A stretch of 64,000 bases of DNA, taken from Panopea generosa. Lineage: Eukaryota; Mollusca; Bivalvia; Adapedonta; Hiatellidae. Positions 7,994 to 63,689 of the stretch are shown one piece after another. The notes below the pieces were generated by a model, which was not told the DNA's origin, did no database searches, and saw only the letters and a list, made by a program, of their open reading frames with translations. Each line of letters starts with the position of its first letter. The first letter of the stretch is position 1. The stretch spans positions 12,918,770-12,982,769 of the forward strand of contig CM055895.1 of assembly GCA_029582155.1 (NCBI GenBank), written 5' to 3'. A program made the position numbers and the translations under genes.

Positions 7994-9172
7994 TATACAC
8001 GCATACTCAAGTTGCTGCAAAAATTTTAGTGACATCATTGCAGCTATTCTAATAGGTTAATTCGAACTGGAGAAGTCCCTGATGACTGGCGGAAAGCTTG
8101 AATGTCACTCCAATCTATAAGAAGGAGGATATTATGACCCCTCTAATTATAGGCCAGTCTCACTAACACGCATTATATGCTGTAAGCTTCTAGAACATAT
8201 ACTGGCTAGTAATATCATAAAGCACCTACAGACAAATGACATACTTGCTGACTCGCAGTACAATTTCAGAAGCAGACATTGTTGTGAACCCCAGTTAATT
8301 TGGTTCATTAATGACATAGCACTAAATCTAGACAGAGGTTACAATAAGAAGCACAAACAGACAGACATTATTGTAATGGACTTTGTCAAAGCCTTTGACA
8401 AAGCACCATACAAGCGATTTCTACACAATCTAGCCCACTAAAGTGTAAGAGGGATAACCAACTGTTAGATTGCCTCACGGTTATCAGACAGAACACAAGA
8501 AATAGTAGTCGATGGAATGCACCCCAACCCAGCTCCAGTTGTATGGATCAGCATTCTTCAAGGCTCCTGTCTGGGTCCCATTCTTTTGTTACTGTTCATT
8601 AAATCAACCTCCTGGATGGTAAATCGTCAAATGTAAGGCTTTTTGCAGACAGCTGTATCCTCTATAAAAGTTTATATTCTCATCAGAACTGCATGTAACA
8701 GACCAACTTACAAAAACTTGGTATATGGGAGCAACAGTGGACCTTGAAGTTCAACGTATCCAAATGTCACTCGATGATAATAACACGACCAGACAAACAA
8801 ACTGATTTACTGTTACACTTTACATGGAACAATGCTGGGAGAGATGAAAAAAATATTACCTTGGGGATTCAATCACTGTTACAATAGACTGGATGCTGCG
8901 TATCCAATATATAACCAACAAGGCAACAAAACTCTTGACTTTCTGCGCTTGAATCTGTCACATGCCCCCATGGGAACCAGAGTTTAGTTTGTCACGAACT
9001 TGAGTAATAAAATGCATCTCCAATTTTGAATCACCACATCCAGGTAACACATATAAAATTGAAATGGTAAGAAGAACAGCAGCCTGAACATGCCTGAGAT
9101 TACACAATACTACACATGTTAGGGACATGCTTGAAGACATAAATTATGATGGTCAACCCTACAGCGATGCGT

Positions 9173-10984: not shown

Positions 10985-11560
10985 GCAATTCAAATGAAAT
11001 GAATGGCAAATCTTAAAGAAGTACCAGACGATTGGAGAGAAGCGTCAGTTGTGCCACTTTTCAAGAAAGGCGATAGACAACAGGCCCGTGTCACTGACGT
11101 CCATGACGTCCAAGCTACTTGAGCACATCGTCCACAGTAGTGTGATGAAGCACTTCGACACGCATGATGTCCTATGCGATAATCAGCACGGCTCCGGAAA
11201 ACGCCACTCCTGTGAAAGCCAGCTTCTCTCAACCATCCAAGAGATAGCATCCAGCACTGCAAAAGGCAAACAAGTCGACATCATACTACTCAACTTCGCC
11301 AAGGCCTTCGATAAGGTTCCTCATAATCGCCTTTTGCATAAGCTTGACCATTACGGGGTCCGCGGTAATCTCAAGATGTGTATCCAATCATTCTTGGGTC
11401 ACAGAACACAACAAGTCATCATAGACGTCGCTAAGTCAGAGACATCAGCAGTGTTGTTCGGCGTGCCCCAAGGTACTGTACTTGGCCCCCTGTTGTTTCT
11501 TGCATACATCAACGACCTCCCAGAACTTACTGGACTATTTCAGACATTTCAGAAGAGTTA
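10985..11560 (+). mobile_element. non-LTR retrotransposon fragment, reverse transcriptase core
   Basis: The translation carries [72 protein letters not shown], the fingers and first palm motifs of a LINE reverse transcriptase. The frame changes once near 11090, and sequence homology stops just before the expected FADD catalytic motif. Truncated at both ends. It is less decayed than the LINE at 7.4 kb and noticeably GC-richer than its flanks, so it is a younger insertion of a related family. Confidence 0.85.
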
Positions 11561-11627
11561 TTCGATAATTGCCGCTGCGCTATTTGGTGATTTTGGAATG
11601 AATCCAATTACCTCCCTTAGACCGTGA

Positions 11628-34149: not shown

Positions 34150-36290
34150 TCGTCAAACATGTTCCCTTGTATTTCACATTTTGAAATTGGTGACAGATTA
34201 AAACGGACCGTGTATTCCTCTGGAAATATTACACAAAGAATGGTACCATCATTTTAAAAAGCTATTGTGCAATGAAAGTACAGACAATAACACACTTTAA
34301 AAACATTTTTGTCAGAAAACCAAAATATAGATGTTGATTTAATGATCCTTTAACAATGCTTGAATTAAAAAAAAATGTGAATGACCTTAAGCTTGGTAAA
34401 TCAACAGACCCCTGTGGAATACTGGCAGAAATAGTAAAAAGTAATATTACAGATATCTCAGCTATTTTGCTTCCATTATATAATAGAATATTCAATACAG
34501 GAGTGTTTCCGAAAGTATGGAGACAAAGTATTCTATGCCCCTTTCACAAATCTGGCTCTTTTAATGCTGCGAATAAGTATCGCGGCATTTCCCTAATAGA
34601 CACACTGAATAAAATTTTAACATGTTTGACGCACAACAAATTAGTAATATGGGCGGAAAATAATAAAAAGACTGACCAGGTACAATCTGGCTTGAAAAGG
34701 GGTGTCTCAACCATTGATAATTTGTTAACACTTATGGCCATGGTTAAAAAATATATAAGTAAGAGAAGTGGACGATTTTACTGCCTGTTTGTAGATTTTT
34801 CAAAGGCATTCGATACAATTATTCACAAGGAACTTTTTAATAGTCTTATAAGAAAAGGAGTTAGTGGACAGTATTTGGCCATACTTATTGCTATGTATGA
34901 TAATTTGTCTTCTTGCGTACGCACTGGTCGTGATGATTATACTAATATCTTCAAATGCAATATTGGTTGCCGCCAAATCTGTAAATTGAGCACGATTTTA
35001 TTCAATCTTTTTATTAATGATCTTGTTGAAGAGTTAAAACAAACATGAACAAATGGTATACATATTTCAGAAGAAGTGGATGATATATTTACAATACTAT
35101 ACGTCGATGACCTGGCAAATTGCAGTGACACTGTTAGACAATTGCAAATGATATCAATATATAAACTTCAAAGAAACGTTGGATTTTTTACCATTTTGAA
35201 TTTTTTATATTGTTTGATGCTATGGTTGTGCCGATATTAACACATGGATCTGAACTTTGGGGATATGAATATGCAACTCAAATTGAAATTATTCAAAACC
35301 AGTTTTGTACAAGATATTTAAAATTATATAAGACTTGTTTCCATGCCCTTTCGCTCGGCGAATGTGGTAGATTTCCTTTAAATATTACATATTATTGTAA
35401 ATGCGTAAACTATTGGTTGCGTCTTATCCATATGGATAATCGTAAATATCCTTAACAATGCTATATTATGCTTCGGAATTTGGATGATGCAGGACGGGTT
35501 ACATTGGCAACACATGTTAGATCATTACTTTTCAGATAGTGATTTGGATATGTCTTGATATCGGAAAATGTAAGCGATGAAAAAGCCTTTATATTCAGTT
35601 TTAAACAGCGTTTATTGGACTGTTCCTTAAAAAACTGGCATGCTGATTTATATCAACCGAGCAAAGCTAGACATTATAAGTATTTTAAAACTAACCTAGA
35701 TGTAGAAAGGTGTCTTACTTTGAAAATTCCAATTAACTTGAAATTAGCACTCTAAACTACGATGTTCAGCTCATTCACTTTTAGTTGAAACCGGAAGACA
35801 CACCGATATCCAATACGAACAAAGAATATGCTTTTTATGTAACTGTAGAGAAATAAAGGACGAATTTCATGTAATAATGAAATGTGCGTATTATGATGAT
35901 TTGAGAAATCAGTATCTATCAGATTTTTTGAATGGTAATCATAATGGATTAAATTTGTTCTTTAAATTAATGAGTACACAAAACAATAAAACTCTCTAAA
36001 TGTGTACTAGAAATGTTCAATAAACGGAAATACTTTATTCAAGTCCAAACTGACACAAACTAAAATATGATTATGCTACACCGTTATAAGATTCAATTTA
36101 CACTTGTAAATACTGATATAACATTTTAGACACTCTATGTTTGATAATTCATATGTGTTTCCTTTTTTTATTCCTGATATTGTCTTTATCCTTTTGGCAC
36201 ATTGTTGTATTATGATAATATTTATGTGTATTTGTATTATGGGCCGATGGCCTGAATTACTTGAATAAACTATTGTCATTACTAAAATGC
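34150..36290 (+). mobile_element. non-LTR retrotransposon fragment, reverse transcriptase plus C-terminal region
   Basis: 34356-35048 reads DLKLGKSTDPCGILAEIVK, NKYRGISLIDTLNKI, LFVDFSKAFDTIIHKELFN, FKCNIGCRQICKLSTILFNL. After one TGA (35046-35048) the same frame gives LYVDDLANC, with an intact catalytic YVDD. An internal deletion of roughly 100 codons follows, then GSELWGYEYATQIEIIQNQF and a Cys/His-rich end (CFLCNCREIKDEFHVIMKC). Jockey/I-like organisation. Dead through truncation, stops and the deletion. It lies in sense to the plus strand, so antisense to the cadherin gene. Confidence 0.85.
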
Positions 36291-40940: not shown

Positions 40941-43900
40941 ACCAACGAAATTTTTGACCGTGCTTTGTTCGCCATGTTCATTCGCAACTCACGGAAAGTC
41001 CCACGCACCCCGTCCCATCGTTCTTCGACTAAAGACATTTTAATGAAAATCAAAAGATTGCAATTCCCGTTGAAGACCATGAGCCGGTTTTACTTAACAC
41101 CTCAAGCTGTGACTCTAAAATCTCAATTTCTCTGAAGTATAGCTTGCATTTATTGCATGTTAAATGACTAGACAGAATGGAAGTCAAAACATATTTCTAC
41201 TCATTGGTAAAAGGTAAAATGCAAAATTATCAATGTTAATAAAATTATGAAAATTATGAAAATCTCTGGTTAAGAAGTTCAGTGAAACTGTGACCAGTAG
41301 TCTATGTTTCGTACGTTAACTTACCAGTAATACAGTAGTTCCACCTGGTGTTGTGTAAGTAGCACTTGGCTTGTATTCGTTAACATGTGACACTGACATG
41401 GTGACGGCGGCCGTGGCAGATAATCCGGGTGTTCCGCTATCTGTGCACGCGATAACGAGAGACGAGGATGTAGGTAAGGCGGTGGATTCAAAGTCCCAGT
41501 TCTGGGCAAGTGAGAGGGCGCCTGTTGCACTGTTTATCCTGCAACAAAAGATCAGTCACGCTCTATAATTAATTCTTCATTGAAAGGTATAATCCGGACA
41601 GAAGTTATGAGTATAATATAGTAGTAAATGACCGATTCAATGGCTGGGTTAGTTCATCATATTTTATTGCATAATATTATGTTTACAATATATACGTAAT
41701 ACCATTCGAATAATAACAAACATAGCATAAGACAATCGATTGGAAAATGGAATCGTACTGACTTTCTATTAACCTTTATTATTTCAAAAGTGGTCTGCTA
41801 TATTTTCTTTATATACGTGCTGACACGGACCTTTTTTTTTTTTTTACATGAATCGCCTGAGGAACATGAAATGTTGTTTTATTATTACATTTTTGTTTAT
41901 CTTCAAGTAGAAATAAATGTTTTTAAATAATCCATATAGATTAAATGTATTAACTTTTAAAATAAAGGAAACAAAAGAACTGTATTTTGGTTGTTTTCAT
42001 CATGTTCATTCATTAAAAGCCTTTACCTTTTCGAATAATTAATAAGTCAGTACATGTACAAGTGTGTATAGAATTGAATAAAAGTCACGCTCTTATTTTG
42101 AGCGTCCCAAACGTACGTGAAATATGCCGCATGAATTCCACTGTTTATGGTAAAGGTCAAGGTTTCCGACGCATCGGGATCCGTGCAAGTAAATTGTGGG
42201 TCGGTCAGTTCTGTACCAACTGCCTGTGGATACAAAAATTATATATCATGATATTAGATTTTTACTTGCGAATAAACGTAATTCTACCTCTCCCAAAATC
42301 AGGTCTGTTTATCCCGAATGAAAAAGCAGGGAATTCCATGCCTGTCCCACAATTCATATACTAAACTGTGACGTCATTCAACTTTTTTTATAAGCAACTG
42401 ACCAGTCAACGTACTGAAATATCATTGCTTTGTAACGGACACAAGCAGGATAGCTGGGTTCATTTTACAGTCTAGGCGATACTAATACTAATCACTGGGC
42501 ATTTCAACGTTACCCAAAATGGTTAACCAGCGTTTAATTTGCTGTATGCATATTTTAAATATAACACTATGCTGCAGAATATACATATTGCACATTATTT
42601 CGGTCGCAGATCAGGATATGAATTCAGTTTTAAATACACTTTTCTACAGTTGATTGTGTTATCTAGTATCGGCATTCATAAAAATGTTCTCTTCAAAATT
42701 CAAAATAGACTGTTGCTTTTGTGAAATCTGCTTAAATTGTCCATAAATAGATACTCGTACACTGTATGGTTATTGACAGATCCTGAATAGTACGTCAAAA
42801 TCCATTTCTGTTAAATCAGATTGGTGTACTAACAGGATATACTTCATAAATGTGCTATGAGTGAATATATAATAACACATGCTGTGATAAGACTGTAACG
42901 ACTTACAGAAAATATCTGAATCGAGAGATGTCAGGACTTAATATACAATAAAATTTGTGCTAGCTTTTTAATATGACATTTGTATATTTTGTGACTGATT
43001 GAAGACTGAATATGATAAAACAATGGGAAACATATTTGTACCAATCAATTCTTTGGAAAAAGCATAATTTATAGAATATCTATACCAAACACACGCACGC
43101 AGGCAGGCAGGCACGCGCGCATGCACGCACGAAATTCGTATTCAAACATACACGGACATTATTCTTACTGTTGACTCCAGAAATGTTACTGTCGACGTTC
43201 CAACTGTGAGAGTTGGTTGCTCGTTAACGTTGTTGATGGACACCGTTAGGTCCTTGCTCTCAGCTGCACTCAGGTACTCGTCACTGACGCTGAACGTTAT
43301 CGTGTACGACGTGGTTCCAGATTCGTAATCGAAAAATGCCGCAGTAGTTAGAACACCAGCTAATAAATACAATCACAATTAGCATTAAATACGCAACACA
43401 AAATGTTTTCAAGAAACGTGTGGACAAATTGTATAAAATGGCATCTGCTGTTATTAAGTTTTCAGGTAGAGTACTAGAATTGCAAACAGGAAGTGCCTCC
43501 ATGGGACATAATTGCTGCCAAAAATAGTTCAAGTTTCTTAATCTAAAATTCATTTTCACATTTACATTGTCTTTTGTTGGTTTGGGTGGCGATGCTTATC
43601 TATTTGGAACGCTTCGACTTCATGTTTAAGTTGTGAATTTAGAAGAAGGACAAAGATTTGGAAATTGGGATATGAATACATTATTTCGAAAAGTTTACTT
43701 TCGTCTTTTTCAACGATGTTCACACTTGCCGGAAACAATCCCTCTGATGAAACATGACCCGATCTGAAAGTTTGTAAACAAGTTCTCTCATGTCCTGAAT
43801 AGTCCAGTCAATCTACGTTTATTAGGTCAACCTGGACAAAATTTCAACAGAATTTCTAATGTATTAACATATATTGCTGCAAACATATCAAAAGTTTACC

Positions 43901-46900: not shown

Positions 46901-49900
46901 CAAACCGGCGGATTCGTCAGTTGAAACCGATGCAGGGAGATTGTTTAACACTGGTGGGGTTCGTGAACCTAGTGCAAGAAATATTGTATACAGGATTAGA
47001 AAGTCAGCTTTAAGTTATTTGGGGCCCGTGTGGTCCCTTAAGCCCTAAATCCCATTCAGAAAACCAAATCTCAAAGTTATGACTAGACATTGCTTCAGAA
47101 AAATCATGGCAAAAATTGGTAGGGGAATTATTTATTCTCTCACAGAATTCCTATTAAAATGAATCCCATCAGCTTTATTTGAATAATTTTACTCATAAAG
47201 TTAAATTAAATAAAATATAAACACATCTGGTTGACCGATTCTTCAGAAAAACGCCATTTATTCAGAACTTTAACCTTTTTGAACGTTTAATGTCCCCTTA
47301 TGGATACTACGGCCTTTTAAAAGAACCAAAATCTTAACTTCTATTTAATTTATAAGAAAATGTCTTTTTTAATAAAACCATAGCAGAAATGCACGCGAAA
47401 GTAAAACATTTCTATTTTCTCGTATCTTTCCTATGTGAACGTTAAAGTTTTTCAGAGCCGAAATGAATCCCAAGCTAATAACAAAAATATACCGCGATTT
47501 CAGGTATTCTTATACTCGAATGTATCCATTATATAGCTTACCGAACGCTTTTATATTGACGTGTGCAATGTATAATCTAATCATTTGTATGCTTGTGAAA
47601 TTGTTCTACACGACAATACTTTATACTCACTTGTAAAGGTGGCAGTCAGAACTCCAGAACTACTACTAGGATGTTTTGTGTCACCAATAGTTACAGTGAT
47701 GGCGTACGCTACATTATTCTCCGTTATAACATCAACGTTTCGCCTTAAAGCGATCTGACCTGTACATATGATACCAAATATTGTCAGAATTATTTGCATC
47801 AATAAATCAGTGTGGTCTACCGGTATTCAGTTTATTCCTGGTGGTACAACTTTCGAGTTCAAAACAAAATAATGTTAGATTTTCGTTAAGTATATATAGG
47901 CCGCCGAAACTATTGCAAGGGAAAAAAAGCATTTATGCAAACTGGCTAAGTTATTCCTGCCTTAAAAACCATCGTCGCAAAAGCAACTGTTGCTGCATAG
48001 ATAATCCAAATTAACCGACGTGATTAACATACATATACCTATGTTCTTGTTCATTTTTATTCCAGTTTTCTAATAATCGGTAATCAAACACACCAGGATA
48101 TGTCATTATTTCTTTCCCAGATTGAAAGAATAGGTATAAACTTTTATAAACAATTAACTGTTTTGTTAGCTAATTTATAACCATAAATGCATTATCAATG
48201 TGATAAGCATATAAAAACGTATGTAAATCATACTAACAGTACTATATTCTTCACTTATCTAAAATTTACTCCTCCCAATATCTCGCAATCTGGTACCCTG
48301 ACCCACCAATAAATCAGCAATAAGCCAGAGAACAGCATTATGCATTATATCATTCTACTTCCAAAATGCTTAGACAATAGAATCAACTAATGACGTGATA
48401 GGAAACAATTTATTATACCAGTCAATATAATAAAATAAAAATGATCAATTCATAAGGTTTAGGGCCGCAGATGTATGACATTTTGGGATTCAATTATCGG
48501 TGCTTGTCTTATCATGATGCATTCTGAAGACAAGCACTCGCATTCACTGATCATAATTAATATTTTTGAATTGAAAATATCTCTGTAATATTTTTTTGTT
48601 TGTCTTCATCATTTATATTCAATATAATTATATCTTATTCTTCTTGCCACTTTTGTATTTTGATTAATTTAGAACTATATCATGATAAAAAATAATGTTA
48701 AAATTAAATATCCTGATGGAGATCTTCTATATAACTGTAAAGACATCAAAAAAACCTATTTTATGTAAAAAAAAAATTTGTGTATATTATACAATATCTA
48801 ATGGATATGAGTATTGAAATGTCGATAGTAAGAACGGTTACGTGTGGTGGGGTGCATGTGTGCGTGCGTGTGTTTTTGTGTGAAAATGTGTGCATGCTAT
48901 TTACTCAATTTGTTATGTGTTAATGTGTTTAATTATTTACATGTTATTACAGCATTGTAATTTGATGAGAAACTATGTATAGTTTAAATCAATAAAATAT
49001 TCTTCTTCTTCTTCTTCTTCTTCTTCTTCTGCTCATAAAAAAACCGCCCCATTTATATAGCTCGTATAATATGCATTGTTTGTGCATATAGTCCGGTTAT
49101 TATTGGGAATAACAGAGTGTGAAATATATATTTCGGTCTAAGATAGACGTGTAATAAAAACATATAAGCACTATAATTACAATTTGACCCTTATCTACAT
49201 AAAATTTGCGAATGACCTTTGAAACAACTAATGGAATCTGATCGCGCACATTAATTCATATACGGATATATCGGTGATTAAATATTACATACAGTATAAC
49301 TTCCATATATCGAACTTCAATATATCGAATTTCTCGGTATATCGAACTTTTTCTCAAGTCCCAACTTTTTTCCTTCTAAATCTATATGGAAAAACCGCAA
49401 ATATATCGAAGTTATACATAACGAATTTTTCAGTATATTGAAGTTTTTGCACGACCCCAAAGAGTCCTTTTACACATCATTAACCATTTATGTATCGAAT
49501 ATCGATTACCTGTTCAAAATTTCTCGCGGGAGTGATGTACATGTATTTCACACCTGCGGTGCACCATTGCGATAATCGTAGGAACAAAGGCCCCGCTGAT
49601 CATATAGCGTAAAGTCCCTTCGAGTGCTCAGATAAATGTTTGTTAGGAGTCACACTTTAATAAACATTTGATTACTTAAAGGCAGAATGGTGATAATTTA
49701 CTGATAAAAACAATAACTTCGTGTACGCAAACATGGCGGCTGCGTCTGTCATGATTACAAATAAGTGATACGTGATTACATAACGTACGTGTAAATCGCA
49801 CGCATTGTATGACGTTTAGTTTCGAATCATGTTATCTTACAAGTGTAATTTATGAACATTTATTTATGTTTATTGTACATGTATGTTGATGTTTTATTCA

Positions 49901-52900
49901 TGTGTGTTTGTACCAACTGATGTGCTGATGAAATATTCATGTACATGTATGTGCTTATTTTCGTATACCGGAAGTGCTCCATGTAAGTTTTTATGTTTGT
50001 ACATGTTTGTAGTGCTATAGTTATATTGATTTTTAAATGACGTGCAGGAATTCAATCAATAATAAACTCGATTTAATTCAGTTTTTTTTTTAACTTACCC
50101 TTACTAGTAAACGTATGACAGGTAGATCTACGGTCATTCACATGTTGCGATCTCATTAACAATCAAACTTTTACCATTACCATCGAGTGATCCAGACATG
50201 CACATATATCGAAGTCCCGGTATATCGAACTTTTCATGACGGTCCCCTGAACTTCGATATATGGAAGTTATACTGTATTTCAATTTACCACCAATGCACT
50301 CCAGTGGGACGTATGAGTTGAGGACGGAACAGGCGTATGTGATGGCATCATTTTCAGTATCTGTCACACTCACTGTATAAATCACCGTCCCTGACAAAAT
50401 TGTAGCTGGGTCTACATTCACGGCAGCTTTAATTATAAATATAAAATATTATTCTATACCTGTAAATGTATAGCCAATCACCTTCTCCAGTTGTTACCAC
50501 GTGACCGTACAATATGTAGAATTTTATTTGTTCAAATAACTTTTATATTGTACAGTTCAAAATTCAAAATATATTTCCATATTGTACAAAGCACAGTAAA
50601 TTAACCTTATAGTATATAAATATACACTTACTATTTCAGATATTCACAAATAATGTGATATGGTTAATTTTCTTTCGCACTAGCAATCCATTCAAGAAAA
50701 CATGTTTTTTATTGGTTTTATTCTACGCAAAATACAATCAAATTGTAATGAAATTGCCTAGTGAAAAAGTCCATATAGTCAATAATTCGATAATATTTAT
50801 ACTACATGCGTCATATAATTTGGTCCCTTAAACATTGTACTGTTATCTGCAGTAGTACATTTAGTTAACATGATAGTTACATAAATTCAGTTCTATTCAA
50901 AGTTGCTAGACAATTAAATGATACCGTCAAGATTTGAAATGACTGGTTGCTGGTTCAATAGAATGTTGACTGTAAGTTCGCCTGTGCTGAAACTGGCGTA
51001 ACGATCTTCACAACGAGTACTGACTGTGTAGGTGGTCGTCGCAGATGTAAACCCCGGAGTGTCTCTGCTCGCGACAGAGAAAACTGAAGATGAAATTTAC
51101 AGGAGCCGCATTATGATAAGTCCAATCCATACATTTAAATGTACACAGGGCTATAGCAAGATTAGCAGACCCTGCTCTTCTCTAACAGTTAACATCTCAA
51201 TCCAATGAAGTAATGTTTGGTTGCGTTGGTGTCATGTTTTTTTACTCAGTGTTATATTTTCTCTTTATTTCTTACATTACCAGTGTGCCACTTTGTAAAT
51301 CCGTTAACTAAGACATTTTAGACGGTTTGTAAACTACGTTTAAATCCTGTACAAAATTATCTCTAGGTTTCTACAGTTGATTGAAACTTAGCGTTTATGT
51401 CAACGGCAGATGGATTTTTCCATTTGTTAGATAATCTGATATTATTTTCTGTTTAACTGTTTAACACATTGTAGCCATGACCGTTTGCATATACATGTTT
51501 AATTGTACACCGATATAAGAAAAGGCATAAACAAGGTCAAATTTAGTTCCGTAAAATTGTAGAAGTTGTCTTACTAGTACAAAGTATAAGCAACAGCATT
51601 GTACTCGCTTGCTATAAATCATAGCAAGCATAGACGTCCTGGCTTGATTTTGCGGGTTTTGTTTCTTGGTTTTCGAAAGAATGCTATTATATTTAACTTT
51701 GCACCGAGATAGGAAAAGCCAGCCCTAATAGCAACATTAGTTTCGTTTTTTAATGTCTAGAGGGTTTCTATCGTGCAATCTGTCAAAATATAAGACGCAG
51801 TTCAAATTAGCTTTCGATTTTGCTCCACCTTCTTCTCCTTGCATTTACATTACTTTCTTACAAGAAGGAGAGGTACAGGGAACCAATAACAGCATAGATA
51901 TAGAACAGTGCTCATTACTTATTACCATCAGAGCCGGGAACAATTTAATTCAGGTAGAAAAAACGTCGGGTTAGTAGCGGTAGGTGTTGGTGAAATGGCG
52001 GTTGTGTTACAGGACACAATGTCGTCTGTAACAGCATAGATATAGAACAGTGCTCATAACTTATTACCATCAGAGCCGGGAACAATTTAATTCAGGTAGA
52101 AAAAAACGTCGGGTTAGTAGCGGTAGGTGTTGGTGAAATGGCGGTTATGTTACAGGACACAGTGTCGTCTGTAACAGCATAGATATAGAACAGTGCTCAT
52201 TACTTATTACCATCAGGGCCGGGAACAATTTAATTCAGGTAGAAAAAAAACGTCGGGTTAGTAGCGGTAGGTGTTGGTGAAATGGCGGTTATGTTACAGG
52301 ACACAGTGTCGTCTGTAACAGCATAGATATAGAACAGTGCTCATTACTAATTACCATCAGGGCCGGGAACAATTTATTTCAGGTAGAAAAACGTCGGGTT
52401 AGTGGCGGTAGGTGTTGGTGAAATGGCGGTTATGCTACTGAACACAGTGTCGTCTGTAACAGCATAGATATAGAATAGTGCTCATGTATAAATACAACCA
52501 GAGCCGGAAACAATTTCTATCAGGTAGAACAACGTCGGGTCGGTGACGATAGGTGTTGGTGAAAAGGCGGTTATGCTACAGGACACAGTGTCGTCTGTAA
52601 CAGCACATATATAGAATAGTGCTCATGTATAAATACCACCGGAGCCGGGACCAATTTCTTTCAGCTAGAACAACGTCGGTTTAGTAACGATAGATGTTGG
52701 AGAAATGTCGGTTATGTTACAGGACACAGTGTCGTCTTTAACAGCATAGATATAGAATAGTGCTCATGTATAAATACCACCAGAGCCGGGAACAATTTCT
52801 ATCAGGTACAACAACGTCAGGTCGGTGACGATAGGTGTTGGTGAAAAGGCGGTTATGCTACAGGACACAGTGTTGTCTGTAACAGCACAGATATAGAATA

Positions 52901-55900
52901 GTGCTCATGTATAAATACCACCAGAGCCGGGACCAATTTCTTTCAGCTAGAACAACGTCGGTTTAGTAACGATAGATGTTGGAGAAATGTCGGTTATGTT
53001 ACAGGACACAGTGTCGTCTTTAACAGCATAGATATAGAATAGTGCTCATGTATAAATACCACCAGAGCTAGGAACAATTTCTTTCAGGTAGAACAACGTC
53101 GGTTTAGTAACGATAGATGTTGGAGAAATGTCGGTTATGCTACTGGTAACATTGTCGTCTGTAACATCATATATATATATAAAAATATAATAAAGTGCTC
53201 AATAATTACCATCAGAGCCGGGAACAATTTCTTATAGATAGAACAATGCCGGGTAAGTGGCGATAGATGTTTGAGAAATAGTGGTTATGCTGCAGGACAC
53301 AGTGTCGTCTGTAACAGCACAGATATAGAATAGATCTCATGTATAATTACCATACTAGTAGGAGTGGTGCAGGGAACCAGTAACAGCATTATATATAAAA
53401 TATTGCCCATGTATAATTACCATCAGAGCCGGAAACAATTTCTTTCAGGTAGAACAACGTCGGGTTTGTGACGATAGGTGTTGGTGAAATGGCGGTTATG
53501 CTACAGGACACAGTGTCGTCTGTGTTGGGGTCTGTTGTCGATATGGTAAAAATAATCGTCTCCACAACAATGTCCTCATGGATTGAAGTCGTGTCGGGCA
53601 GGTTTGAAATTAACAGAGGCTGCAACAAAACACGTATATCAAAGTTACGTCTTTAAAGCGATATTCTATCTATTGGTGCTAGTTATTGGTTACTTGTGGA
53701 GTGAAAACTAAATACAATGTTACAATAACCAGTATTTACTTTTAAGTAAAGTCGATATGGTTCTATTTATAACTCTAATCCAGGAACCATCGCGAGGACC
53801 ACTGACAATATTGTTGAACTTACACGTATTGGTCACAAAAAACTACTTATATGTAAAAAGAAAGCTACATTTTTGTGTACTTGATATTTGTTACATAGCA
53901 TATCCTACTTTATTAAAAATCTATTTATGCTGAATTGTTAACCGGGTATGCATTGCCACCATTTAAGTGTGATTGTGTGTCTTCCAATATGAAACAATGG
54001 GTTACAAACCACTCAAACAAACAATCAATGAAACATTAGTGTTTTATTACGACATTGATAGTATCACAAATGACATGCAAATGTGATAATAAAACACTAA
54101 TAAAACACTTTAAACAAACCACTAGTAAAATACTTTAACAAAACATCAATTCTGCTCTAATAAAACGCTAATAAAATACTAAAATTTTTATTCAAAACAT
54201 CAATAAAGCATTTTTAACAAAACAGTAATGAAACACTAATAAAATATCAATAAAGCACTTTCAACAAAACACTAATGAAACATCAATGTCTGGTGGACAT
54301 TCAAAATGTATAGGTGGAATGTACTGGTGAAAATGTTCAAGGGGGCCATTCCAAATGTCTGGGGGAAATTCCAATGTCCAGGCAGACATTCCAAATGTCT
54401 GGGTAAAAATTCTAATGTCCAGACAGACATTCCAAATGTCTGGTTGGAAAATCCAATGTCGAGGCAGACATTCCAAGTATCTGGGTAGAAATTCCAATGT
54501 CCAGACTTTTAAATGTCTGGGTGGATTTATACCAATAATGTGTCTTATTTTTTAAAATGGAGTTCTCTTTTCAATTTCACACTTGCATTTAAAACATTGA
54601 TTTGTCTCACTGTCCCTGTGCGAAATGTGACGTCTGTAAAATTCGTGTAAACCAGGCATAATTTTATTGAAATCCATCGAAATTTTGTTTGCACAAAAGA
54701 TGAAAACCAAGCATAAAATGAGGTGACGTAGATCACGCAGGTATAACATATCACGAAATATGCAAAGAATCTACATGGTTTTAAAAATCTAGAAGTAATT
54801 TAAACCACACATCAAAAGTAGTACTAATCAACCAGGCTTAAAAATAACCAGGGGTCAAAAGGACCAGACTTAAACTAGCAATGTGGATAAGAATGTTCTC
54901 ACTGTAAGCTTTGAAACAAACTTGAGTGCATGTGGCTACTTACTCTTTTTACCAAATAATTAACATTATTTCAGATCAAGTATCATGACAAATAACAAAA
55001 CATTATTGCTACAAAATAGCGTTGATGGTCTGTGACCACAGAAGCTAGAGCTATAATTAAGGAACTTCTATGAAGTCTTATTAGACATTGGCTTAAGTTA
55101 TTTGTTTTTTAATTATAAAACATTTTGCACTTAAAATAATAAAGTTCTTTGTGTTCTTCTCGTTTTAAGTGTTTAGGATAGTTCAAAATATTACAGTTCT
55201 CAAATTCAAGTTAATATTTACATTTATTATGCTTTAAAGTGCTAGTTACTTTGACCTTAATTGTTGGCATGCATACATTCACCCCTAAGATGATTTAAAC
55301 ATGCACAACATTCATGTTACAAAAGCTCATAGGTTTGAGCACACTAATTTGCATTTAAACAAAGATTTATTTGTGGGTATGTTTTTCAAATTACATTTAT
55401 ATTGGACATTTCTGAGTTGTGTATTAATTGTTGATTTAATCGGAATAATAAACTAGTAAACTTAAACGCAAATAAAAATATACGCAACATTATTTGAAGT
55501 CAACATATATTAGGTACGTAGGACCTTTTTCACACATGTTTGTATAATACACTATACATATATGTTGTTACCTAGCGTCACTATGACATATATGGTACGA
55601 ACCCAATATCCACACGTATTTGATTTGAAGCATACACAAATATAATTATGTACGTATGGCGTAATGGCGACACTATGACAGCTACCACACAGACGTCATA
55701 TCCGCACGCTTTTGTATCATACACAATATACATATACTTACGTAGTTAACCGCCGTCACTGTAACAGTTACCACACAGACGCCATATACACACGCATCTG
55801 TATCATACACATAACACATACTTACATAGTTAACTGGCATCACTGTTGCAGTTACCACACAGACGCCATATCCACACACTTTTGTATCATACACAATATA

Positions 55901-58900
55901 CATATACTTACATAGTTAACCGCCGTCACTGTAACAGTTACCACACAGACGCCATATACACACGCATCTGTATCATACACATATACACATACTTACATAG
56001 TTAACCGGCATCACTGTTGCAGTTACCACACAGACGACATATCCACACGCTTTTGTATCATACACAATATACATATACTTACATAGTTAACCGCCGTCAC
56101 TGTAACAGTTACCAAACAGACGTCATATCCACACGCTTTTGTATCATACACAATATACATATACTTACATAGTTAACTGCCGTCACTGTAACACTTACCA
56201 CACAGATGCCATATACACACGCATCTGTATCATACACATATACACAAACTTACCTAGCTTACCGGCATCACTGTTGCAGTTACCACACAGACGCCATATC
56301 CACATGCTTTTGGATCATACACAATATACATATACTTACGTAGTTAACCGCCGTCACTGTAACAGTTAACACACAGACGCCATATACACACGCATCAGTA
56401 TCATACACATATACACATACTTACATAGTTAACCGGCATCACTGTTGCAGTTACCACACAGACGCTGTATCCACACGCTTTTGTATCATACACAATATAC
56501 ATATACTTACGTAGTTAACCAGCGTCACTGTAACAGTTACCACACAGACGCCATATCAACACGCATCTGTATCATACACATATACGTACGTAGTTAACCT
56601 GTGTCACTGTTACAGTTACCACACAGACGCCTTATCCACACGCATCTGTATCATACACATATACTTACGTAGTTAACCGGCGTCACTTTTACAGTTACCA
56701 CACAGACGCCTTATCCACACGCATCTGTATCATACACATATACTTACGTAGTTAACTTGTGTTTCTGTTACAGTTACCACACAGTTGCCGTATACACAGG
56801 CATCAGTACCATACACATATACTTACATAGTTAACCGGCGTCACTTTTACAGTTACCACACAGACGCCTTATCCACACGCATCTGTATCATACACAAATA
56901 CTTACGTAGTTAACTTATGTTACTGTAACAGTTACCACACAGTTGCCATATACACAGGCACCAGTATCATACACATATACTTACATAGTTAACCGGCGTC
57001 ACTGTAACAATTACCACACAGACGCCATATCCAAATGCATCTGTATCTTACACATGCACATATACTTACATAGTTAACATGCGTTAATGTATCAGTTATC
57101 ACACAGACGCCATATTCACACGCATCTGTATTATACACATATACACATACTTACATAGTTAATCGGCGTCACTGTTACAGTGACCACACCAACGCCATAT
57201 CCACACGCGTATGTATCATACACATATACACATACTTTCATAGTTAATCGGTGTCACTGTTACAGTTACCACACAGACACCGTATCCACACGCATCTATA
57301 CATACACAAACACACATACTTACATAGCTAACCGGAATCACTGTTGTATTTACCACACAGACGCCATATCCACACACACATCTGTATCATACACATATAC
57401 ATATACTTACATAGTTAACCAGCGTCACTGTTACAGTTACCACACAGACGCCATATCCACACGCATCTGTATCATACACATACTTACATAATTAACCGGC
57501 GTCACTGTTACAGTTACCACACAGACGCCATATCCACACACATCTGTATCATACACATATACACATACTTACACAGTTAACGGGCGTCACTGTTACAGTT
57601 TCCACACAGACGTCATATCCATACGCGTCTGTATCATACACCTGTACACATACTTACGTAGTAAACCGGCGTCACTGTTACAGTTACCACACAGACGCCA
57701 TATCCACACGCATCTGTATCATACACATATACACATACTTACATAGTTAATCGGCGTCACTGTTACAGTTACCACACAGACGCCATATCCACACGCATCT
57801 GTATCATACACATATACACATACTTACATAGTTAACCGGCGTCACTGTAACAGTTACCACACAGACACCGTATCCACACGCATCTGTATCATACACATAT
57901 ACTTACATAGTTAACCGGCGTCACTGTAACAATTACCACACAGACGCCATATCCAAATGCATCTGTATCTTACACATGCACATATACTTACATAGTTAAC
58001 ATGCGTTAATGTATCAGTTATCACACAGACGCCATATTCACACGCATCTGTATTATACACATATACACATACTTACATAGTTAATCGGCGTCACTGTTAC
58101 AGTGACCACACCAACGCCATATCCACACGCGTATGTATCATACACATATACACATACTTTCATAGTTAATCGGTGTCACTGTTACAGTTACCACACAGAC
58201 ACCGTATCCACACGCATCTATACATACACAAACACACATACTTACATAGCTAACCGGAATCACTGTTGTATTTACCACACAGACGCCATATCCACACACA
58301 CATCTGTATCATACACATATACATATACTTACATAGTTAACCAGCGTCACTGTTACAGTTACCACACAGACGCCATATCCACACGCATCTGTATCATACA
58401 CATACTTACATAATTAACCGGCGTCACTGTTACAGTTACCACACAGACGCCATATCCACACACATCTGTATCATACACATATACACATACTTACACAGTT
58501 AACGGGCGTCACTGTTACAGTTTCCACACAGACGTCATATCCATACGCGTCTGTATCATACACCTGTACACATACTTACGTAGTAAACCGGCGTCACTGT
58601 TACAGTTACCACACAGACGCCATATCCACACGCATCTGTATCATACACATATACACATACTTACATAGTTAATCGGCGTCACTGTTACAGTTACCACACA
58701 GACGCCATATCCACACGCATCTGTATCATACACATATACACATACTTACATAGTTAACCGGCGTCACTGTAACCGTTACCACACAGACACCGTATCCACA
58801 CGCATCTGTATCATACACATAAGCGTTCATAGTGTAGACTGTCGATGGGTAATCCGCAGTTAAAGTCTTGATGGTTGTTACTGCACCTAAATTGCGAAAT

Positions 58901-61900
58901 TTTTTTTTTTTTTAAATAATGTGTGTTTTTAAATACTGAACTTACCTGTATTAAAAAACGTAAATTTGAGTTACACTTGCTTAAATATGAAAACGTGGTT
59001 GTAGGCAATACACATAATGTATGATTGGGTGATACGTTATGTGATATAAAATAGTTAATTTCCTTTAAACGTAAAACGGTTTAGTTATATCCACATCTCA
59101 ATATGGAGCGCGTGGTCCAGTGGTAGAGCACCGAACCCATGATCGGAGGGTCATGGGTTCGACCCTCCGCAACGACTTGATCGTTCGCCTTGAGTAAGAC
59201 ACTTTTCCTCATATGTTTGGAACTGGTTCTAACCAGGGAGACTTCGAGTGTGATTTGCCTAAGTTGTAAGAACTTTTTTTCACAATCGAAGTAAAATAGA
59301 TAAGTTTAAACTAAGGGATTAGAGCAAAACTAATATATCTACCTTCTAAATGTGACTCAAGTTAGACTAGTATTGAACTAAGGTATGATACGTGTAAATA
59401 TTCATTTATAGGATGAACATGAGTAAAATTGATGATTTTGACATATTTTATTGCCAAATATGTGCAAGTACAGTGCAATTGGTTCATGCCACAAGTGATA
59501 CAAACATTAGCTTCCCTAAAACTGAGTTAACAAATATCATGAATATGGCTAAACATATTTAATAACATATATTAACATAGAGTTGAGTTAACTAATTGAT
59601 ATCAACATTGTTGATTATCCCTTTAACAGCAGTTAGGAGAATTGTTTGAATTGTCAATTTAGAAAATATGTGATGCTTGGAGATTGAGGTATGAATACAT
59701 GTTTTCAGAAACCTACTTTCACTTTTTCAACAGTGTACACAATGAGCAGAAACAATCTCTTATATGACACATGACCCCTACTTTGGTAGTGCGGTGGTTG
59801 ACAAACAGTAAAATGTAAGTTCACATCTTTCATTTGGTTCTCTCTGTGAATGACAAGCCTTCAAACTTTTATTATTTACTATAGAATAAAAAACAAAAAT
59901 CAATGGTAGGATGACACCTTAATGCCATAATATACATTATTACCTGTTCCACTGTTCACTGAGAAGTATTCGATAGAGTCGGAAGCTAAAGAATAGCTAA
60001 GTCCGGAATATGTGCCTGGACTGGATACCAAATCATAAATACTGAATAACTGTCCACCCACTGCATATTCTGTAGTTACTGAGACGCTGTGAGCAGTGCA
60101 TTGTGGGATTGGTGAATTGCAATAGTCTGAAAAATCAGAGGTATTCAAATCACTTACTTTTAATTAATTTGAGTAATTTTATATAATACTTTCAAGGACA
60201 CTGGAAACTTTTTGTTAGAATTACAAGCTATGGACTACAACCTAGTGATGTACATTTATATCTTATAAAAAGTACTAGGGTCTCAATTCAAAGATTTATT
60301 AAAATAATTCCAGACAGGGTTTTTATGAAATGTGTCCAAAATCTAAGATCAATAGGACCTGATGACAGTCTTTAACAATTTTATCTGTATTTGGAGTTAA
60401 AATGTCGTCCCCTATTCTCTAGGACTCAGTGTTGTTATTATTTCTAGTTCCTTTTAATCACGAATTTCTTTATGTGTTTTCTCAGAAATTAGAATACCGC
60501 TTAAGTGGTATGTAAAATGTCTATAAAGCTTTCCCTTTCTAATTTCATTCTTTAGCTTAGGTTTTTAAAACTTTATATGCTAAACTTTTACAGTCAGTAA
60601 ACAACAGCAATGGATCAGTCAAAACCAAATTTTGTGGAACGTAGATTCGTAGAGCAACCAGACCCAGGATCGGTGGGTTGTGGGTTTTGATTGTCCACCA
60701 TGGTGTGTGAAGTGTCTTGAGCAAGATACTTTATCGAAAATACTTACTATTTGTTCTACCCAGGACGATATCGAGCGTGAATTGTTTAATTGTACATGAA
60801 AACCTGTTTCACAATCAATGTAAATTATATAAGTTTAAAACAAAAGCAAGTTTACTCAGAACTTACTCTTTATATCTATAGTCAGTGTTTCACAAATTTC
60901 GTTTCTACGCTCGTGTCCGCATACTAGAATGGTGTAAGTTGTGTCCGTGGTCAGGTTCCAAAGGTGAGTTGTCATTGTTATATTCGCAAGATTACCTGAA
61001 ACAAACATAATTATGCATCGTAGCATTCACTTTAACAAATCAGCTGTTTACAAAAATGTTTGTACTTTCTTCTTGTTATTTTTACGGGGCACACAAAAAT
61101 TTAATTTCACTTATGTTCACATATCAAATCGATCATTATATCATACGTTTAAAGTGAATATATCGGGGGAAAACGCTTTAAATGTCTTAAAAAATAAAAA
61201 TATATTTTTTTAAATTGGACAAAAAGCATTTCTTAATCGAATACAATGGTTTGGCATATCAAATCCGCCGAAATGTGACAAAATCAATGTTTCAGTCGGA
61301 GTGGTAAACTTACGAAATTGCCATTAAAAAAATAGACAACACTAAATACTGCTTGAAAACTCTCACATCGTCGTTCGGACGCTTCCTAAGACGAAAACAA
61401 TTTTATACCGTGTAAACCGGTATGCCTGATCAAATTGAAAACAAAATGAAATCTCATGACTCATTTAATACGTCACAAAATCTATTTTAGTCTAACCTAG
61501 GCGCGTAGCCCAAGTTAGGAAACCCGTTTTCAATATGTTTAAAGAGCTATCCTTTTTGAAATACGGGGTCATTGAGTATATATAGACACGAATAAAAACG
61601 AATATTTTTAGCCAATTTTTAAATTTTGAAAAATAAAAAAGTTACCTTTATAGAATTTTAACAGATAAAAGTATTAATGCCCATATGAGGATTTCATTTT
61701 TAAATAAAACACAAACATTAGGGAATCACTGCACAGTCTTTAAAAAGAGCCAAGCTAGTCAATCTACCCGTTATTGTGCATTTTTATGTGAGAATATATT
61801 CTTGTTATTAAAAACTACTTTAAAAAAAGATTCTATGTAAACTTTTTGTTTAATGTTGAAATCCTAGACCTTATTTTATATAAACAAAGAACAAAATTCA

Positions 61901-63214: not shown

Positions 63215-63406
63215 AACAGAAACATACCACATTATACAATTAATGTCACATGTTGTATTACCACATTGTACAATTTATTCCACGTGTTTATTTTACCACA
63301 ATGTACAGTTTATGTCACGTGTTTGTAATACCACATTGTACAGTTTATGTCTAGTGTTTATATTACCATATTGTAAAATTTATGTCACGTGTTTGTTTTA
63401 CCACAT
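63215..63406. repeat. 32-bp tandem repeat next to exon 1's acceptor
   Basis: About six copies of ACCACATTGTACAGTTTATG followed by TCACGTGTTTGT. CACGTG E-box-like hexamers recur, but within an intron this is probably incidental. Confidence 0.8.
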
Positions 63407-63689
63407 TCACGGTCAAGGAACTCTGTCACAACGTAGAGTGATTCGCGTCGGCAGTTTGTCACAAACTATCAGATACTCGTTATGTAACGTTTAGGTCATC
63501 GAGTTTGCGTAAGAATTTGTCAATCTACCATTTGCAGGTATGTATTCAATAATTTCACGGCGTTTGGACGTAACGTAACGCAAAACCAATGCATTTGGCA
63601 AATTCCTCGATCCCCGTAGCAACGCCTAAGCTAAATCACAGAGATTATCGTTTTGGTGGTTTAATGACCCAGGTATTCTAAATTTTTGC

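Follow-up and report, generated by a model that had tools for sequence, protein, structure and literature searches.

Tandem copies of an exon end and its 5' splice site in the following intron of a cadherin-like gene of Panopea generosa

Introduction

The human gene IFI6 (6-16, G1P3) contains a minisatellite whose unit is reportedly 12 nt long, so that extra units stay in frame. According to a later summary, two of its downstream repeat units serve as splice donors, which leads to three mRNA species (PMC4526556, citing Turri 1995). Internal tandem repeats at exon-intron boundaries have also been described in human genes within segmental duplications, together with alternative splicing and the activation of cryptic splice sites. 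Some of these repeats have long units, given as 62 to 126 bp for introns in Table 2 (PMC2812944). In Caenorhabditis elegans, CeRep25B is a mostly intronic minisatellite with splicing-related motifs (PMC4039745).

Here, we describe two neighboring introns of a cadherin-like gene in the bivalve Panopea generosa, each of which begins with tandem copies of the end of the preceding exon and its donor. The analysis covered one stretch of 64,000 nucleotides (the window), which is animal-like DNA with a GC content of 35.6%. The larger array is like CeRep25B in being an intronic minisatellite that carries splicing motifs. However, the CeRep25B motifs are described as splicing regulatory elements, not donors, and the accessible part of that report does not mention an exon origin (PMC4039745).

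Results

Eight exons of the cadherin-like gene were placed on the minus strand between 63209 and 47631, with their frames joined by hand. They are numbered by the window, and the start of the gene may fall outside it. The spliced 411-aa model of exons 1 to 8 matched Pfam Cadherin (PF00028) with an E value of 3.5e-05 and 24.6 bits, under the curated cutoff of 28.8, and an open reading frame at 41319 to 41555 matched the same family with 8.2e-05 and 23.4 bits against that cutoff. No Pfam family was found when exons 4 to 7 were scanned alone. When exons 3 to 6 were compared with solved structures, there were cadherin-superfamily matches with E values down to 1.8e-04, and the 14 PDB sequences with E values up to 1 were desmocollin-1, cadherin-23, CELSR1, Cdhr2, and protocadherins. 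From these similarities, the predicted gene product looks like cadherin repeats. The translation of exon 4 is AVTTIKTLTADYPSTVYTMNAYVYDTDACGYGVCVVTVTVTPVNY. Features of the locus are listed in Table 1.

Table 1. Coordinates of the exons, arrays, and duplicated blocks within the window
Feature	Position	Strand	Description
Exon 4	58750..58886	-	137 nt; phase 1 in, phase 0 out (phases by hand); second half of a cadherin-like repeat
Exon 4 own donor	58742..58749	-	GTAAGTAT
Exon 5	53421..53619	-	199 nt; source of array 1
Array 2 (85-bp array)	55666..58821	-	Exon 4 tail, donor, and intron start; found by TRF
Decayed terminal units (two)	55561..55665	-	Donors lost; 34% and 40% different from exon tail
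Block copy A	57900..58821	-	922 bp; begins within exon 4
Block copy B	56978..57899	-	922 bp; starts with a unit nearly identical to exon 4 tail
Array 1 (second array)	51887..53352	-	Units of ~141 bp (TRF); ten copies at start of intron 5

Array 2 reaches three kilobases into intron 4, and TRF reported it as 37.7 copies of 85 bp with 84% matches. There are 37 donor positions on the minus strand, from exon 4's own at 58749 to the last at 55741, which leaves 36 in the array. An exact GTAAGT is present in 33 of the 36, and the longer GTAAGTAT in 32. The three defective donors are GAAAGT at 58161 and 57239 and GTACGT at 56589. A plain count of GTAAGT gives 35 (one in the exon, 33 in the array, and one new) because an extra one arose within the exon-like part of a unit. 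An initial annotation, made from the letters of the DNA, had described an exon tail and donor amplified about 36-fold in the next intron, forming a row of about 37 near-consensus 5' splice sites. The donor positions, the TRF array, and a tblastn search (see below) agree with that description. The 85-bp unit that it gave is indeed the commonest donor spacing (17 of 36), but the length is not fixed. The other spacings are 79 bp (seven), 86 bp (five), 84 bp (three), 77 bp (two), and 87 bp (two), so that units run from 77 to 87 nt, with a coding tail of 56 to 62 nt. The statement that every unit starts at ATACAG went too far, because ACAG heads 24 of the 36 units and is missing from 12. Beyond the last of them, the two decayed units have recognizable donor positions, at 55655 and 55561. 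Decayed units at the outer edge are usual in tandem arrays. A blastn search of the window with 700 bp of array 2 and 600 bp of array 1 found no further copies beyond these two arrays, and a 20-base pattern from the array had no match in viral contigs.

When exon 4 was used as a tblastn query, the array units were matched one after another on the minus strand. Homology extends 72 nt into the exon (58821-58750). The array thus has the exon 4 tail as its first unit. We built a consensus from 25 array units, leaving out block copy B (units d11-d21) and the two decayed units, and it encodes TDACGYGVCVVTVTVTPVNY, identical to the exon peptide. Thus, the derivation of the units from exon 4 that had been proposed is upheld by the search, the shared tail, and the consensus. 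The exon differs from the consensus at four exonic positions and one intronic position. All four exonic differences are synonymous, which has a chance of about 0.006 when transitions are weighted 2:1. In contrast to the exon, the same 25 units vary at 18 synonymous, 40 nonsynonymous, and 3 stop sites, against 16.0, 42.5, and 2.4 expected without coding constraint. With the exon added as a 26th row, the counts are 19, 40, and 3 against 16.2, 43.3, and 2.5. The 25 units are 6 to 22% different from the exon tail. The intronic units vary like noncoding DNA, while in the exon copy the amino acids have been preserved; the synonymous-only differences of the exon therefore mark it as the constrained member and the units as its unconstrained copies.

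We also considered a conveyor model, in which units are born at the exon and older ones are pushed outward. Divergence from the exon had a Spearman correlation with distance of 0.28 for all 38 rows (p 0.08), 0.27 with block copy B collapsed (n 28, p 0.17), and 0.09 when the two decayed units were also removed (n 26, including the duplicate pair d10/d21). The model is therefore without support inside the array, where the only clearly decayed units are the two outermost.

The array has been copied in blocks, most recently as a block of 922 bp. At a shift of 922 bp, positions 58821-57886 match the next stretch with one mismatch in 936, a synonymous difference at 58774 in the exon copy. Because the register of the match begins within exon 4, the coding exon end shares in exchange with the intronic satellite. 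Unit d11, in block copy B, is only 1.2% different from the exon tail. The GAAAGT defects at 58161 and 57239 are one event that was copied, and the two 77-bp spacings are likewise one unit and its block copy. Of the 37 donor rows, 11 (57827 to 56984) fall in block copy B, and the number of independent units among the 36 in the array is therefore about 25. Such near-identical copies, seen here in one haplotype, make length variation between individuals likely. Two plus-strand open frames of 110 aa, at 57159-57491 and 58081-58413, lie exactly 922 bp apart. We rejected them as genes because they are one stretch of the array in its two block copies.

Intron 5 starts with a second array of similar build from another exon. 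Each unit of array 1 joins the final 99 nt of exon 5 and the exon 5 donor to the start of the intron, with a spacer of about 42 nt that ends in TTACAG or TTAAAG; the ten copies begin right after. The units are pseudo-exons bounded by AG and GT, 99 nt long in 7 of 10 and 102 nt in one. Although 8 of the 10 are multiples of three and phase compatible, 7 contain a stop or a frameshift. A second array of this kind, with most of its units broken, argues for a mutational habit of the locus. The presence of two such arrays side by side points to a tendency, either local or genomic, toward duplication across exon ends. However, tandem repeats abound in the window (40 TRF rows, some of which overlap), so chance could also have placed the two arrays next to each other.

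Several measures were used to ask how well the array donors are kept. Across the unit tree, 2 changes fell in the six donor columns, against an average of 8.1 for windows of six columns, and 3 of 74 windows had as few (permutation p 0.022); this is one FastTree tree of 27 rows, including one duplicate pair (d10, d21), and many of its nodes are weak. Two other measures, taken over the 25 units plus the exon, gave p values of 0.04 and 0.015. The exon-like part has CpG columns that vary more, and with CpG columns set aside, these two measures gave 0.07 and 0.03. By these alignments, the donor columns appear somewhat more conserved than chance (p 0.015 to 0.07), which is suggestive, not decisive. 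In computed pairing with the U1 5' end, 32 of the 36 array donors had -7.3 or -7.6 kcal/mol, one had -10.5, and three had about -3.5. The same calculation gave -7.3 kcal/mol for the exon 4 donor and -4.4 to -9.1 for those of the seven other exons.

Reading through past exon 4 adds VSMCICV and then meets a TGA, whichever downstream donor is used. Therefore, the annotated in-frame TGA after seven codons is present. A consensus 56-nt unit read as an exon has a TAA after nine codons. Either outcome is predicted to give a truncated cadherin or decayed RNA. It had also been claimed that the units cannot be spliced one by one. The 29-nt gap does make splicing between adjacent units unlikely, but skipping one unit leaves 29 + 85 = 114 nt, and spacing alone therefore does not forbid unit exons. 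Five units (four distinct sequences) folded as RNA had no unusual structure, with z scores from -1.3 to 0.1, and a conserved RNA structure of the units was rejected. There were no known RNA families in the window at gathering scores. One unit folded as single-stranded DNA had z scores of -2.6 and -2.5 on the two strands, and such folding is a possible aid to instability.

The window contains other repeats and mobile sequences. A 35-bp minisatellite at 63225-63407 stops about 15 nt short of exon 1, whose first base is 63209; it is a third repeat array against a splice site of the cadherin-like gene. Between 13019 and 28525, TRF found five long 27-bp minisatellites in succession, all with the same motif and with 34 to 46 copies each. 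After four of them comes a short array of about five copies, a pattern that looks like tandem duplication of a segment of about 3 kb. Reverse transcriptase fragments (Pfam RVT_1) are on the plus strand at 8121-8438 (E 3e-07), 10998-11624 (E 3e-16), and 34338-35045 (E 3e-17). On the minus strand, a 984-bp stretch at 49292-50275 has 23-bp inverted ends (CAGTATAACTTCCATATATCGAA) and TA on both flanks, and its start lies 13 nt past the donor of exon 7, counted from the first donor base (50288). We take it to resemble a nonautonomous Tc1/mariner- or pogo-type element. By eye, a tRNA-like head followed by a tail in intron 3 (59108-59300, plus strand) is a putative SINE; ARAGORN found no tRNA in the window.

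Discussion

We think it probable that array 2 is a neutral, exon-anchored minisatellite that straddles a 5' splice site, has spread by unequal exchange, and has leaky downstream donors. It might have originated by tandem duplication between short matches, the exon sequence TATGTGTAT at 58821 and the first intron bases. The match is 9 bases long; as read by eye, its exonic copy lies at 58821 and its intronic copy at +6, and the 77-bp unit found in both block copies has the exact length expected from such a founder duplication. The intron start beside the exon is already array sequence and shows only the current 85-bp register, so we infer the founder event. Later copying would have proceeded in blocks, with the exon tail taking part in the exchange, and the many donors would be by-products carried along. 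Exon 4's own donor would mainly be chosen because it is closest to the exon 4 acceptor. Some use of the next donors is to be expected; it would yield a single truncated product, with seven extra codons and the TGA, whose transcript would probably be destroyed by nonsense-mediated decay.

The initial annotation had offered three functions, a U1 decoy, a brake on splicing, and neutral satellite growth. The last of these fits best because the units drift without visible coding constraint, were copied in blocks, and fold ordinarily as RNA. It is also favored by an array that begins within the exon, a consensus that encodes the exon peptide, two decayed units at the far edge, and the absence of further copies in the window beyond the arrays. 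The computed U1 pairing of 32 of the 36 donors, about as strong as that of the exon's own, also speaks for this explanation. The one hint toward a decoy or a brake is the modest donor-column conservation. This could reflect weak selection that keeps the donors, and it counts against neutrality.

A length-variable brake, in which downstream donors compete, each use leads to the same premature stop, and array length tunes output, is in our opinion unlikely. It would explain why 33 donors are intact, most of them with nearly the computed U1 energy of the real donor, why any extension past exon 4 hits one TGA, and why the donor columns are above average in conservation. However, that conservation is borderline and becomes weaker when CpG columns are set aside, and exon definition should favor the first donor. 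There is a precedent in the use of two downstream repeat units as donors in human IFI6, as summarized in PMC4526556. A broader version, which we regard as quite improbable, is that exon-seeded 5' splice site arrays in two adjoining introns form a heritable, length-variable rheostat. Each copy would add a competing donor leading to the shared premature stop, and unequal exchange with the coding tail would keep donors sharp and let intronic variants enter the protein. A U1 snRNP reservoir, with about three dozen U1 sites holding U1 on the nascent RNA as a decoy or as a shield of the rest of intron 4 against premature polyadenylation, seems highly improbable. GTAAGT does occur 35 times in 3,084 nt of the array 2 sense strand, whereas six other intron stretches have 0 to 3 each, and the array is free of AATAAA and ATTAAA, of which the rest of intron 4 has 6 and 2. 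Yet intron 7 also has 6 AATAAA and just one GTAAGT. Furthermore, the 14 donors examined were mostly paired in local folding, with a fully open chance of 0.01 to 0.13, although the 8-mer median there was lower still (0.006).

We find it barely credible that the units are alternative exons, or alternative exon 4 tails, that vary the cadherin repeat. Twenty of the 26 array rows in the unit-tree set have no stop in the exon frame, and the bounded, phase-compatible units of array 1 have lengths that would suit such exons. However, the consensus unit exon of array 2 soon runs into its TAA, a third of the units are without ACAG, and by eye no pyrimidine tract precedes ACAG. Moreover, array 2 has no coding constraint, and most array 1 units are broken. 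We therefore rejected coding exons in a Dscam-like alternative-exon array. It is also very unlikely that misassembly accounts for the 922-bp repeat or for more of the array. The two block copies are as similar as a false duplication might make them, but their sole difference is synonymous and sits in the exon copy, and assemblers do not invent the divergence between the exon and the units outside block copy B.

Overall, we consider the array most likely to be repeat DNA that propagates itself and happens to abound in working-looking splice signals, and not a dedicated device. It provides a natural experiment in how the spliceosome picks one donor among about three dozen near-identical ones in a row, as well as a case of sequence exchange between a coding exon end and an intronic satellite. 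A literature search, mostly of papers open without subscription, found no precedent with about 36 long-unit copies or with arrays in two neighboring introns, and the donor-array precedents that it found are scattered human cases.

Within what is accessible of the human reports, the array belongs with the IFI6 and segmental-duplication repeats at exon boundaries and differs from them in unit size, copy number, and its occurrence twice in a row. It shares with the latter a long-unit tandem repeat at an exon-intron boundary, but in that report novel introns formed from repeats in exons (PMC2812944), whereas here the exon is unchanged and the intron fills with copies of the exon tail. The closest known case, as far as it is described in the summary cited above, is the splice-donor minisatellite of IFI6 (6-16). 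In both genes, a tandem repeat lies at an exon end and its units carry donors, which are predicted here. The first unit of our array is a coding exon end with its donor, and the units keep the consensus donor. Unlike IFI6, the clam gene has far longer units that read into a stop and extend deep into the intron, and it has a second such array in the next intron.
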